Assembly: GCA_030680175.1 (NCBI GenBank)
Contig: JAUXWO010000021.1
Coordinates: forward strand, 1-64,000
Length of the DNA stretch: 64,000 bases
DNA from: Vicinamibacterales bacterium
Lineage (GTDB): Bacteria > Acidobacteriota > Vicinamibacteria > Vicinamibacterales > UBA2999
Direction of reading: 5' to 3'
Both the position numbers and the translations under genes were made by a program. Shown here in pieces: positions 37,462-43,131 of this stretch (position 1 is the first letter of the stretch; each line of letters opens with the position of its first letter). Under the pieces are notes generated by a model that did not search any database, had not been told where the DNA came from, and saw nothing but the letters and a program-made list of their open reading frames with translations.

Positions 37462-38298
37462 TCACCTTGTCCCCGTTCCACGCACGAACGCCGCAATCGC
37501 AGCCAGCGCCGCGTCGCCCTCGTTCGCCAGGTTCCGCCAGATCGTCGTGTGGTTGCGGCCGCTGATCTCCTGCGTGCGCACGCTCGTATGGCCCGTGGCG
37601 GTGAGCGCCGCCGCCAGGTCGCGGCTCTCCTGCTTCCGATCCGGCGCATCCCCATCCGCGTAGAGCAGCAGGAACGGCGGCGCGTCCTTGCGCGCGTAGG
37701 CTGCAGACGAGGCCTTCGGCCACGTCGACGGATCCGCTCCCCACGTGTCCTTCGGACGATCTGGTGCCACGCGCTCGACGTGGTGGAACCCGCTGATCGG
37801 CACCACCCCGCGCAGGGCTGCGGGTGTGAGCTGGTGCGCCGAGAGATACTGGCCGTCCAGCGCAACGAGTGCCGCGAGGTACGCACCGGCGGACCAGCCG
37901 AGGACGAACGTCCGGTCAGGGTCGCCGCCATGTTCGCCAATCGTCCGCTTCGTCCACGCGATGGCCGCCGCCAGGTCCTGCACGTGCGCGGGGTGCTCAA
38001 CGCCAGGTGACAGCCGGTAGTTGATCACGACGGCGCCGAGGCCGTCGGCCGCAAGGCGCCGGCCAATCGCGGCTTCCTCCTTCTTGTCACCCTGGCGCAG
38101 CCCGCCGCCGAAGACCACGACAACAACGGGAAAGCGCGTGGGGGTGTCGGGCAGGTAGAGGTCGAGCGTCTGGTTCGGGCTGAGACTGCCCTGCACGTAG
38201 GGGATGTCGAGCATCACGCGCGGCGCCTGCGCGAGGGCCGCGCTCGGCAGCGAGAGGGCGAGCGTCAGAGCGAGAGCAGCGGTACGTCGAGCAGACAT
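37462..38298 (-). CDS. Secreted alpha/beta hydrolase (esterase-like)
   Basis: 278 residues. Signal peptide to about residue 23, oxyanion-hole region VVVVVFGGGLRQGDK, nucleophile elbow GWSAGAYLAAL, acid in LLYADGDAPDRKQ and His in ISGRNHTTIW complete a triad. It resembles carboxylesterase/acetylxylan-esterase-type enzymes of the HSL/BD-FAE group. Exported, substrate unknown. Confidence 0.85.
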   Translation of the reverse strand: MSARRTAALALTLALSLPSAALAQAPRVMLDIPYVQGSLSPNQTLDLYLPDTPTRFPVVVVVFGGGLRQGDKKEEAAIGRRLAADGLGAVVINYRLSPGVEHPAHVQDLAAAIAWTKRTIGEHGGDPDRTFVLGWSAGAYLAALVALDGQYLSAHQLTPAALRGVVPISGFHHVERVAPDRPKDTWGADPSTWPKASSAAYARKDAPPFLLLYADGDAPDRKQESRDLAAALTATGHTSVRTQEISGRNHTTIWRNLANEGDAALAAIAAFVRGTGTR

Positions 38299-38321
38299 GG
38301 GAACTCCCGGGGTGGTGGCAC

Positions 38322-38370
38322 CGGTGGACGGTGGACAGCGATCAGCAATCGGCGCTCAGCAATCGGCGCC
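38322..38370. repeat. 7-nt tandem array upstream of the esterase and transposase genes
   Basis: Seven heptamers: CGGTGGA twice, CAGCGAT, CAGCAAT, CGGCGCT, CAGCAAT, CGGCGCC. Confidence 0.8.
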
Positions 38371-38407
38371 TGGCATGCGACGGAGTCTCGCGCGAAATAT
38401 AGCATGC

Positions 38408-38451
38408 GGGGGTCAGGTCAGGAGCATGTGGGGGTCAGGTCATGAATCGTG
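38408..38451. repeat. GGGGTCAGG direct repeats near the transposase
   Basis: Two GGGGGTCAGGTCA copies 22 bases apart. The second continues through CATGAATCGTG, identical to one arm of the palindrome at 37393-37455. Confidence 0.8.
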
Positions 38452-38581
38452 CCCGTTTGCAGATCTCGCAGCCCGCCGTCGACCAAAACACGCATTTTCT
38501 GCCACGACCATTCCGGACCCCTCTAATTCAGGCCTGTTCCAGCCGCCATACCTGGCCCTCACCTTGCGACCTCACACACGC

Positions 38582-39316
38582 ATGGCCAGACGCCCTCGAC
38601 TCCAGTTCCCCGGTGCGCTCTACCACGTGATGTCACGTGGCAACCGGAAGTCCTCCATCTTCGACACCGACGCCGACCGGGATCGCTTCATGCGGCTCCT
38701 GGCCGACACCGCACTCGCCTACGACGCGCGGGTGTACGCCGCCTGCGCCATGGGGACGCACTACCACCTGCTGCTCGACACGCCGCGCGGCAATCTGTCG
38801 GAGATGATGCGACAACTGAACGCGGTCTTCTCCCAGTGCGGCAACCGCCTCTACCAGCGCACGGGGCACACCTTCGAGTCCCGCTTCCACTCCATCGTCG
38901 TCCAGCGGGAGCGCCACCTCCGCCGCGTCGCGCGGTATGTGGTGTGGAATCCTGTCAAGGCGGGCCTGTGTGGGGATCCTGGCCGCTGGCCGTGGACGAC
39001 GTACCGGGCGACGGCCGGACTCGAGCCCGCGCCGCGCTGGCTCCACGTGGAGTGGATCGACTGGGCATTCAGGGCGGCGACACGCCGGCCGAACTCGCTG
39101 GTCTCGAAGCCCGGCGGCTCGAGACCGGGTACGTCGATGCGTTCCTCCTGGCCAGCGCGTACGCGGAGATCGGCGACGCCGCGCGCGCGTTCGCGTGGCT
39201 GGACGAGGCCATCACCGACCGCAGCGCCTACGTGCCGATGCTCGTGGTGGATCCGGTCTGGACACACTTCCACGCCGACGCGCGGTTTCTGCGGCGGGTG
39301 GAACAGGTGGGGCTGA
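38582..39316 (+). CDS. REP-associated tyrosine transposase (RAYT), C-terminus altered
   Basis: 244 residues. The Y1/HUH transposase core is clear: MARRPRLQFPGALYHVMSRG, the HUH pair in GTHYHLLLDTP, QLNAVFSQCGNRLYQRTGH, and the catalytic-Tyr helix RRVARYVVWNPVKAG. RAYTs mobilise short palindromes by single-strand transfer. After about residue 160 (HVEWIDW) the sequence stops looking like a RAYT and becomes an out-of-frame reading of a TPR-protein fragment. The enzyme core may still be active. GGGGTCAGG repeats upstream are its likely targets. Confidence 0.82.
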   Translation: MARRPRLQFPGALYHVMSRGNRKSSIFDTDADRDRFMRLLADTALAYDARVYAACAMGTHYHLLLDTPRGNLSEMMRQLNAVFSQCGNRLYQRTGHTFESRFHSIVVQRERHLRRVARYVVWNPVKAGLCGDPGRWPWTTYRATAGLEPAPRWLHVEWIDWAFRAATRRPNSLVSKPGGSRPGTSMRSSWPARTRRSATPRARSRGWTRPSPTAAPTCRCSWWIRSGHTSTPTRGFCGGWNRWG

Positions 39317-40254: not shown

Positions 40255-40890
40255 ATGACCCGCTCTGCTGTGTGGAAGGCGGCCCCGGCCGCGATCGCGA
40301 TCGCCTGGGTCTCGGCGTGCGGCGCACCGCCCTCGGAGGAGGCCGCGACGCCCCCCGCGCAGGAAGCCGCCGCCTCCGAGCTTCCGGCGGAACAGGAGGC
40401 GTTCTGGGCGCGCTTCGCCGCCCACTGCGGACGGGCCTACGGTGGCACCGTCTCCGATGTAACGCCCTACTATGCGCCGGGGCTGGAGGGCCGGCGGCTG
40501 GTCATGCACGTGCTCGAGTGCAGTGACGACCGGATCCACGCCGCCCTGCACGAGAACGACGACCGATCGCGAAACTGGATCCTGACGCGGGTGGGCGGGA
40601 CGATCCGTCTCAAGCACGATCACCGGCACGAAGACGGGAGCGAAGACACCATCACCCAGTACGGCGGCGATGCCCCGGTGCCGGGACTGGCGCACCGGCA
40701 GATCTTCCCGGCCGACGCACACACGGCCGCCATCCTGCCGGACCGTGCCGACAACTTCTGGTTCTTCGACTTCGTCGATGCCGACACGCTGCAGTACGGC
40801 GTGCACTGGCCTAAATTCGGGCACTCGGTGCGGCTGGAGTTCGACCTCTCCACTCCCGTGGAGGCGCCACCCCGCCCCTGGGGCTACTGA
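40255..40890 (+). CDS. Lipoprotein of unknown function
   Basis: 211 residues. The signal ends in lipobox VSACGAP followed by an Ala/Pro/Glu linker. The domain has FWARFAAHCGRAYGG, VMHVLECSDDRIH, LKHDHRHEDGSED and YGVHWPKFGHSVRLEFDLS; a similar secreted protein is common in Proteobacteria, with no function known to me. His/Asp-rich HDHRHEDG may bind metal. AAAGGA precedes ATG 40255. Confidence 0.72.
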   Translation: MTRSAVWKAAPAAIAIAWVSACGAPPSEEAATPPAQEAAASELPAEQEAFWARFAAHCGRAYGGTVSDVTPYYAPGLEGRRLVMHVLECSDDRIHAALHENDDRSRNWILTRVGGTIRLKHDHRHEDGSEDTITQYGGDAPVPGLAHRQIFPADAHTAAILPDRADNFWFFDFVDADTLQYGVHWPKFGHSVRLEFDLSTPVEAPPRPWGY

Positions 40891-40956
40891 CCTATTGGGG
40901 TCAGACCTATTGGGGTCAGATCTTGATTCTGAGCGCAACGATCAAGATCTGACCCC
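40891..40956. repeat. GGGGTCAGA palindrome between convergent genes
   Basis: CCTATTGGGGTCAGA occurs twice in tandem from 40891. The second copy starts a perfect 16-base inverted repeat (40912-40927 with 40941-40956) around a 13-base loop. It occupies the whole gap between two convergent genes, one base after the stop codon. Confidence 0.9.
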
Positions 40957-40959
40957 TGT

Positions 40960-42021
40960 TCAGAAGATGCCGTGCCGCTTCAGCGTGGCGGTCGGGTTGA
41001 TGGTCAGGAGCAGCTCGAAGCGACGCTGGTTGGGGATGGGGTACGCGGTGTTGAAGGCGTGGCCCTGGAACCAGCCGATCGAGACGTCGCGGGTCAGGGC
41101 GAGGCTGCCGATCGAGTAGAACCGCGTCCCCACCTCGTAGCGATCCGCGTTGAGCGGGCCGTAGCGCCGGTCGATCGACGTCACGCCGAGCGTCACGCCG
41201 ACGCGCGGATGCGGCCGCAGATCGGCCATCACGTTGAACCCCTGCGCCGGCTCCGGGTCGAGACGCTCGTACGCTTCGAGCCGGACGGTCGTCAGCAGGG
41301 GCACCGTCGCCGGCATCCGGACCGACAGCCCCTGCCGCAGGATCTCGCGACCGGCCTCGTGCGTGTAGTCAACCGACAGGCGCACGCGCGGGCCGAGACG
41401 CACGCCGACGAGCACCTGCCCGTAGTTCCACTCGGTCAACCGGTGCAGCCGCTCGAACACGTTCGGCTCCCGGAAGTCGCCGATGTAGCCGGCCGTGGCC
41501 GACACCTCGGCCAGCCGGCCCTCGCTGGGCCGCCACGACGCGCGCTGGCCCACGATGTAGGCGTCGTTGTCGTAGGTCGTCACCTCGGTGCTCTCGCCCC
41601 GCAGCATGTACAACCCGCCGATCTGCAGGTCCAGGCCGGCCACCGGCTGCGCCGACACAAACAACTGCTTGATGTTGAAGTCCCCGGTGAACACGCCGAC
41701 GCCGCCGCCGGTGTTGTTCCATCCCGAGATGAACTGGCTGCCGCTGAAGGCGCCGACGTGCAGGCTGTACTTCTTGTCGCGGTCGAACAGCAGCCGCGCG
41801 CGCACCTGCGGCTGCCACTGCACGGTGCTCGACATCAGCCGGCCGTCCGAGGCCTCGACCCATCGATAGCGGGAGGACAGGTGCACGTGCTGGAGGTCGA
41901 TCCAGCGGCGGATGGCCGGAGGCGGCGGCCCTTCGGACGCCTGCGCGGAGGGCGGCGCCGGGGTCTGGGCCCACACGGGCACCGCGGCAAGGACGGCGAG
42001 CAGGACGACGATCACGGTCAT
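40960..42021 (-). CDS. Outer-membrane beta-barrel protein (porin-like)
   Basis: 353 residues from ATG 42021. Signal peptide MTVIVVLLAVLAAVPVWAQ, then alternating beta strands such as VQWQPQVRARLLFDRDKKY, LHVGAFSGSQFISGWNN, QIGGLYMLRGESTE and VRLSVDYTHEAG, with a strand-like end but no C-terminal Phe-rich segment beyond KRHGIF. Probably a 12-16-strand outer-membrane pore. ATG 42039 is possible but overlaps the -10 hexamer. The operator with 11-bp phased repeats upstream suggests control by an OmpR/PhoB-family regulator. Confidence 0.75.
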   Translation of the reverse strand: MTVIVVLLAVLAAVPVWAQTPAPPSAQASEGPPPPAIRRWIDLQHVHLSSRYRWVEASDGRLMSSTVQWQPQVRARLLFDRDKKYSLHVGAFSGSQFISGWNNTGGGVGVFTGDFNIKQLFVSAQPVAGLDLQIGGLYMLRGESTEVTTYDNDAYIVGQRASWRPSEGRLAEVSATAGYIGDFREPNVFERLHRLTEWNYGQVLVGVRLGPRVRLSVDYTHEAGREILRQGLSVRMPATVPLLTTVRLEAYERLDPEPAQGFNVMADLRPHPRVGVTLGVTSIDRRYGPLNADRYEVGTRFYSIGSLALTRDVSIGWFQGHAFNTAYPIPNQRRFELLLTINPTATLKRHGIF

Positions 42022-42032
42022 AGGCACGGGCC

Positions 42033-42038
42033 GTATCA
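42033..42038 (-). promoter_or_regulatory. -10-like hexamer TGATAC of the outer-membrane protein gene
   Basis: It ends 11 bases before ATG 42021 and lies 12 bases downstream of the last GTAAC repeat. Confidence 0.4.
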
Positions 42039-42050
42039 TCGCCGCTGCAC

Positions 42051-42088
42051 GTTACATGCGCGTTACCCGCGCGTTACTTCTGTGTTAC
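42051..42088 (-). promoter_or_regulatory. Four GTAAC direct repeats with exact 11-bp period
   Basis: On the plus strand GTTAC occurs at 42051, 42062, 42073 and 42084. 11-bp direct repeats in the -35 region are the hallmark of OmpR/PhoB-family winged-helix response regulators (Pho boxes). Confidence 0.7.
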
Positions 42089-42129: not shown

Positions 42130-43131
42130 TCAGACGACCAGCAGGTCCCGGCCGAGGATCACCTCACCCGCGAAGTGCTTCCGGACGCCGTCGATCCACA
42201 TGGCATCGGTCACCGTGGGATCGGCGCCAGGGACGAAGTGCGAGAGCACCACCGTCTTCACGCCCGCCGCGGCGGCGACGCGGCCCACGTCCTCGGTCGT
42301 CGTGTGGCTGTCGATGATGTGCTGCCGGAGGCGTCGCGCGTTGGAGTCGGTGCCGAGAATCCGATCGATGCCCGGCGCGTAGAGCACCTCGTGCACGAGC
42401 ACATCCGCGTCCTTCGCCAGCGCGATCACCGCGTCCGAGACGTTCGTGTCGCCGGAGATCACGATGGATCGATCCGCGGTGTCGAAGCGGTATGCGAACG
42501 AGGGGGCCACGGGCGGATGCACATTGAGTGCCGCGGTCACGCGGACGTGCGCGTCCTCGTGCACGAGCCCGCCCTCGCGGATCTCACGCACGCCGATGAG
42601 CGGCGCGAGCGGCGGCCGGCCTTCGTCGGCGATGCGCGTCTCGATGTCGTAGGCCTGCATCTCGAGAAAGAGCGCCGTCATCCGCGCGAGCGGCGGCGGC
42701 CCGTACGCCGCCACGCGGTGCGACAACCCGCTCGTCCACCCGAGCAGGAACAGGTTGCCGAAGTCCGCGTTGTGATCGGAGTGCTGATGCGTGAGGAACA
42801 CGCCACGCAGCGCGGGAAAGCCGAGGCCCGCCCGCACGTACTGCCGCGGCGTGCCATTGCCGCAATCCACGACATAGACCGCGTCGCCAACGACGATGGC
42901 CTGGGCCGGGGCGGAGCGATCGGGCTTCGGGCTCGGCCCGCCGCCGGTGCCGAGGAGCACGAGGCGCGTCGCGCCGGCCGGGCGGCTGTCCGGCGGCGGC
43001 GCCTGGGCGCCCGCCGCCGTCCCCGCGACGGTCAGGGCCGCCGACTGCGCGAGAAACGCGCGGCGGCTGACACGCCGGATCGCCCCGTCGTCAGACAATC
43101 CCGCCGCACGGTCTCGGGGCGCATCCGGCAC
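42130..43131 (-). CDS. Metallo-beta-lactamase-fold hydrolase, Tat-exported, RNase Z-like
   Basis: 333 residues. Tat signal in RRVSRRAFLAQSAALTVAG. The metal site is intact: THQHSDHNADFG (HxHxDH), DTNVSD with the bridging Asp, HEVLYAPG and VLSHFVPG. Close relatives are arylsulfatase/quorum-quenching-type RNase Z-like enzymes. GTG 43131 with GGAGA upstream lies 12 bases after the preceding hydrolase gene, so both share an operon. Confidence 0.85.
   Translation of the reverse strand: MPDAPRDRAAGLSDDGAIRRVSRRAFLAQSAALTVAGTAAGAQAPPPDSRPAGATRLVLLGTGGGPSPKPDRSAPAQAIVVGDAVYVVDCGNGTPRQYVRAGLGFPALRGVFLTHQHSDHNADFGNLFLLGWTSGLSHRVAAYGPPPLARMTALFLEMQAYDIETRIADEGRPPLAPLIGVREIREGGLVHEDAHVRVTAALNVHPPVAPSFAYRFDTADRSIVISGDTNVSDAVIALAKDADVLVHEVLYAPGIDRILGTDSNARRLRQHIIDSHTTTEDVGRVAAAAGVKTVVLSHFVPGADPTVTDAMWIDGVRKHFAGEVILGRDLLVV

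Follow-up and report, generated by a model that had tools for sequence, protein, structure and literature searches.

The window, that is, the whole 64,000-nt stretch of DNA that was analysed, contains on its minus strand a gene for a putative porin-like outer-membrane protein, and upstream of it a codirectional gene for a metallo-beta-lactamase-fold hydrolase (Table 1). Between both genes lie four copies of a 5-mer. An earlier note on this DNA had reported GTTAC at four places of the plus strand, and its positions are exact (units 1 to 4 in Table 1). As the barrel gene runs on the minus strand, this strand was preferred for reading the units, and the element then reads GTAAC ACAGAA GTAAC GCGCGG GTAAC GCGCAT GTAAC. 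Hence 42051-42088 comprises four direct repeat units of 11 nt in exact phase, at least two such units being expected of a PHO box.

Table 1. Features at the barrel locus and boxes elsewhere in the source genome (window positions, unless a contig is named)
Feature	Position	Strand	Basis or context
Putative Pho-box unit 1, GTAAC, farthest upstream	42084..42088	-	sequence and matrix match
Putative Pho-box unit 2, GTAAC	42073..42077	-	sequence and matrix match
Putative Pho-box unit 3, GTAAC	42062..42066	-	sequence and matrix match
Putative Pho-box unit 4, GTAAC, near the expected -35 place	42051..42055	-	sequence and matrix match
Predicted -10 hexamer GATGAT, 10 nt after unit 4	42035..42040	-	sequence; spacing as at pst, regulator and many pit promoters and E. 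coli phoA
Porin-like outer-membrane beta-barrel gene	40960..42027 (ORF 40960-42039)	-	ORF and predicted structure
Metallo-beta-lactamase-fold hydrolase, codirectional upstream neighbour	42130..43131	-	Pfam PF12706/PF00753
pstS box, TTAAC-n6-TTAAC-n6-GAAAC-n6-GAAAC-N10-TACGCT-N7-ATG	C112:1912-1949		directly before pstS
Box of PhoB-like regulator gene, GTTAC-TTAAC-GTCAC-GAAAT-N10-TACGGT	C94:146068		before regulator gene C94:146284
Box of TonB-dependent receptor gene, four units-N10-TACCCT	C94:140414-140451 (stretch of about 140398-140451, L161:10399-10452)	-	

GTTAC-N6-GTTAC occurs three times in the window, always at 42051-42088, when 0.00 occurrences are expected from 100 dinucleotide shuffles. 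In the 4.98-Mb source genome the window site gives the only exact three-unit match, and the exact GTAAC-N6-GTAAC pair is present at a single further place, C52:22400, which scores at background level with the matrix described below. Since all four 5-mers are identical and the spacers of 6 nt have diverged, the element does not correspond to a recent tandem duplication. The GTAAC units were also considered as an ECF-sigma site, but their four-fold 11-bp phase and the parallels at pst genes led us to reject this reading. Elsewhere in the window, a REP-like sequence (GATCTTGATTCTGAGCGCAA...GATCAAGATCTGACCCC) at about 40890-40950 has a similar counterpart in the genome (L066, about 1550-1600), and ORF 38204-39316 resembles a Y1 (REP-associated) transposase.

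The earlier note had proposed searching the genome for GTAAC-N6-GTAAC at Pho genes. The source genome was covered by pattern searches and in a few stretches. The exact pattern misses its Pho genes, whose units read TTAAC, GAAAC and GTCAC instead; they were recovered by a degenerate search (three units, up to 3 mismatches), which gave 28 matches, compared with 9 for the reversed pattern used as control. Both pstS and a PhoB-like regulator gene of this genome carry the box, and these are the genes at which its absence would have told against the earlier note. In both cases the 11-bp phase and the 10-nt distance to the -10 are those seen in the window. Downstream of the boxed pstS come pstC and, farther on, phoU (pst-phoU operon); PiT is absent from this genome.

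To compare these sites, we used a matrix trained on 41 pstS and regulator promoters from genomes of the family other than the source genome. With this matrix, whose training sites were collected by a best-offset choice that favours this site shape, and in which the window site had no part, the window site scores 27.5 bits, the top of the 64 kb by a wide margin. When these repeats are read on the opposite strand or shifted, the score is at most 7.0 bits, the next separate site in the window scores below 0, and the maximum in a random control of 4 million positions was 8.4 bits. Besides the window site, the only high scorers in the degenerate search were the sites at pstS (50.0 bits), the regulator gene (46.0 bits) and the TonB-dependent receptor gene (29.0 bits); the matches C142:70291 (12.2 bits) and C56:18429 (9.2 bits) are questionable. 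We regard the boxed TonB-receptor genes as a candidate phosphate-regulated TonB uptake operon. The receptor comprises 948 aa and is followed by genes for a 450-aa product that matches no Pfam family and for a lipoprotein-like product of 171 aa, and genes similar to this group adjoin pit in relatives (L039, L211).

The element also precedes phosphate genes in the relatives. A multi-unit (four-unit) box is present at 26 of the 29 family pstS loci that were read and at all 11 regulator loci first scanned (the source genome and ten relatives), further boxed regulator loci being found beyond those. At nearly all boxed pstS and regulator promoters the box is followed by 10 nt and a NANNNT hexamer. 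When the pattern was searched in the sister genus with no regard to gene function, the promoter of a DUF47-PiT permease operon (PF01865, PF01384) was matched in four genomes. We then scored 30 such loci from the family, 28 of them readable, for GTAAC-N6-GTAAC in the 130 nt upstream, one mismatch being allowed. A two- or three-unit box was found at 19 of the 28, and at none of 252 equally long pieces of coding sequence; some pit promoters have other spacings. In other bacteria, pit is repressible by PhoB. Across the order (161 genomes), a function-blind scan with TGTAAC-N5-TGTAAC matched 47 times and its reversed control 7 times; of 30 matched loci that were read, half adjoin DUF47-pit or pst (pstB) genes. 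In another family of the order, a perfect four-unit TGTAAC array in 11-bp phase (L099:1501-1539, G067) is located by a TonB-receptor-like gene.

A scan for consensus sigma-70 promoters around the window element gave no match, as is to be expected if the box replaces the -35. The earlier note had pointed to TATCAT on the plus strand (42034-42039) as a -10-like hexamer. This reading needs correction in strand and position: GATGAT on the minus strand (42040-42035), offset by one base, fits better. It is a weak -10 hexamer, located exactly 10 nt past the last GTAAC, so that the four units would stand in place of a -35, at the expected distance from a predicted -10. The layout of the window promoter is then four units, N10, GATGAT, N7 and GTG. 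As the first ATG of the ORF (42039) falls inside the -10, translation likely starts at GTG 42027, 7 nt past the predicted -10, in which case the mRNA would be leaderless, or at ATG 42021; this assignment builds on the -10 and on the pst and pit promoters. A -10-like hexamer about 7 nt ahead of the start codon was observed at pst, pit and barrel promoters (L160:1912-1975, L112, window 42025-42055), and with this distance their mRNAs look leaderless or nearly so.

The barrel protein matches no Pfam or NCBIfam family. The earlier note had suggested a porin, and the predicted structure backs this fold: the model (pLDDT 77.7, pTM 0.74) has the 16-stranded fold of general porins. Among the fold matches listed are OmpM1, OmpT, OmpC and OmpF, with Z of 17-20 over about 250-288 residues and rmsd mostly of 3.1-4.1; identity to the general porins among them (OmpM1, OmpU, OmpF) is 4-13%. 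PhoE and OprP are not among the fold matches listed. The model thus suggests a 16-stranded porin without prior family classification. PhoE and OprP/OprO are Pho-regulated 16-stranded outer-membrane porins, and as phosphate-starvation porins PhoE and OprP would offer the natural analogy for its function.

Orthologues of the barrel are present in 13 of the 162 genomes of the order, and a scan of a contig collection with the barrel gave one relative, at 42% identity, in an Acidobacteria MAG. Those of the sister genus share 53-60% protein identity. In five sister-genus genomes, two of whose contigs end at or within the barrel gene, the exact GTAAC-N6-GTAAC is found in the intergenic region before this gene, opposite a divergent gene for a UbiX-like flavoprotein (PF02441). 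The box there has two clear units and is placed 11 bp farther upstream than in the window; the -10-like CACTAT follows 21 nt downstream of the box, one 11-bp turn beyond the spacing of the window. No box was found at the more distant orthologues scanned, which indicates that box control of the barrel gene is not ancient. Tentatively, the barrel might belong to a family of phosphate- or organophosphate-selective porins, of an origin apart from PhoE/OprP, that came to be controlled by a multi-unit, lineage-specific Pho box in the source genome and its sister genus alone; we consider this rather doubtful.

Seven full-length matches of PhoB/OmpR type are encoded in the source genome. The boxed regulator gene, C94:146284 (L129), has no adjoining kinase gene. 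Its product scores 232.1 bits with the PhoB equivalog TIGR02154, its best family; this is below the cut-off of 296.2 bits, and it is therefore named only PhoB-like. Its closest solved relative is RegX3, a phosphate regulator in mycobacteria, and PrrA and MtrA are also near it in sequence. In eight relatives its orthologues are located near the pst genes, on the pstS contig and the same strand, about 5-10 kb away from pstS. In the source genome the regulator gene and pstS are on separate contigs, each at a contig end. A CHAD-like gene seems to be truncated both at the end of C94 (L161:18813-19373) and at the start of C112 (L160:1-227), and regulator and pst operon are therefore probably neighbours here, as in the relatives. 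Judged from its relatives and from the place of its orthologues, the likely binder of the window element is the C94:146284 regulator. A second PhoB-like regulator, C94:133425 (L128), whose gene lacks a box and has a PhoR/PnpS-like kinase gene next to it on the downstream side, may be an alternative candidate.

In E. coli phoA, the promoter sequence GTCAT-AAAGTT-GTCAC-GGCCGAGACT-TATAGT shows N6 and N10 as in the window, and a PHO box is described in the literature as made of direct repeat units of 11 nt that are bound head-to-tail (PMC4415409). Taking into account this spacing and this description, the window element can be read as a four-unit Pho box that would replace the -35, and the presence of the four-part element before the phosphate-uptake genes of the family makes its identity as a Pho box very probable. 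Most likely it serves to activate the putative porin gene in phosphate starvation. The proposal of the earlier note that an 11-bp box of PhoB/OmpR type takes the place of the -35 is thereby supported at the level of sequence, the same layout being found at pst, pit and regulator promoters throughout the family. It had left the choice between phosphate and osmotic control of the porin; phosphate control is favoured by the boxes at phosphate genes, and osmotic control finds no support here. Upon phosphate starvation, a phosphorylated PhoB-like response regulator of the OmpR family would bind the four 11-bp units head-to-tail, from about -60 to -23, and, in substitution for the missing -35, would direct RNA polymerase to GATGAT as the -10. 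The 16-stranded porin would then be switched on, and phosphate or phosphate-bearing compounds could enter the periplasm for the Pst system. We infer that a PhoB-like protein binds the box and activates, not represses, the gene; start site and cargo of the porin are likewise deduced.

The box might instead belong to another OmpR-family regulator, of osmotic or envelope stress or of nitrogen in the manner of GlnR or MtrA, that also touches phosphate genes. The letters and phase of actinomycete GlnR boxes are nearly identical (PMC10704036), and both the proximity of PrrA and MtrA to the candidate regulator and the number of PhoB/OmpR-type proteins in the genome would allow for it. The recurrent targets are, however, pstS, pstB, DUF47-pit, the barrel gene, or the regulator gene, in relatives about 5-10 kb from pstS, and the best solved relative of the candidate regulator is a protein with a phosphate role; we regard this possibility as very unlikely. 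It is very unlikely that a Pho box at this place represses the porin or is transcriptionally inert when bound: many E. coli PhoB sites are reported to be inert, though these are intragenic (PMC10294691), and the window has the layout of the pstS promoters and E. coli phoA, a box standing for the -35 with 10 nt to the -10. A chance match or a neutral tandem repeat of 11 bp, to which the GCGC shared by the spacers of units 2 and 3 could point, is practically negligible, as none are expected in shuffles, the spacers have otherwise diverged, a matrix from other genomes ranks the site first, and a box is kept before orthologues at 53-60% protein identity.

For the family, which is probably acidobacterial, the analysis gives a sharp and testable definition of the box, about [GT]TAAC-n6-TTAAC-n6-G[AT][AC]AC-n6-GAAA[CT]-N10-TANNNT. 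In the literature searched, no description of an acidobacterial Pho box was found. The box would link an outer-membrane protein that falls outside Pfam and NCBIfam to a function in phosphate supply, and it makes phosphate regulons readable from uncultured genomes of the group.

Compared with known systems, the element resembles the PHO box of E. coli phoA in its 11-nt direct repeats at the -35 place, in N10 to the -10 and in its occurrence at pst genes. It differs in the units of the family (GTAAC/TTAAC/GAAAC, against GTCAT/GTCAC in phoA), in having four units rather than two, and in the near-leaderless start. As for PhoE and OprP/OprO, the product would be an outer-membrane porin, here predicted to be 16-stranded, under a Pho box; unlike them, the window barrel has no Pfam or NCBIfam family, and its fold matches general porins. 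Streptomyces PhoP operators likewise consist of 11-nt direct repeat units in variable number (PMC4415409) in a GC-rich host, but their unit is GTTCACC and their regulator comes from another lineage. The actinomycete GlnR box, gTnAc-n6-GaAAc-n6-GtnAC-n6-GAAAc (PMC10704036), also comprises four 5-mers in 11-bp phase, and its letters agree with those at the pst and regulator promoters of the family; GlnR controls nitrogen genes, whereas the recurrent targets here are phosphate genes.
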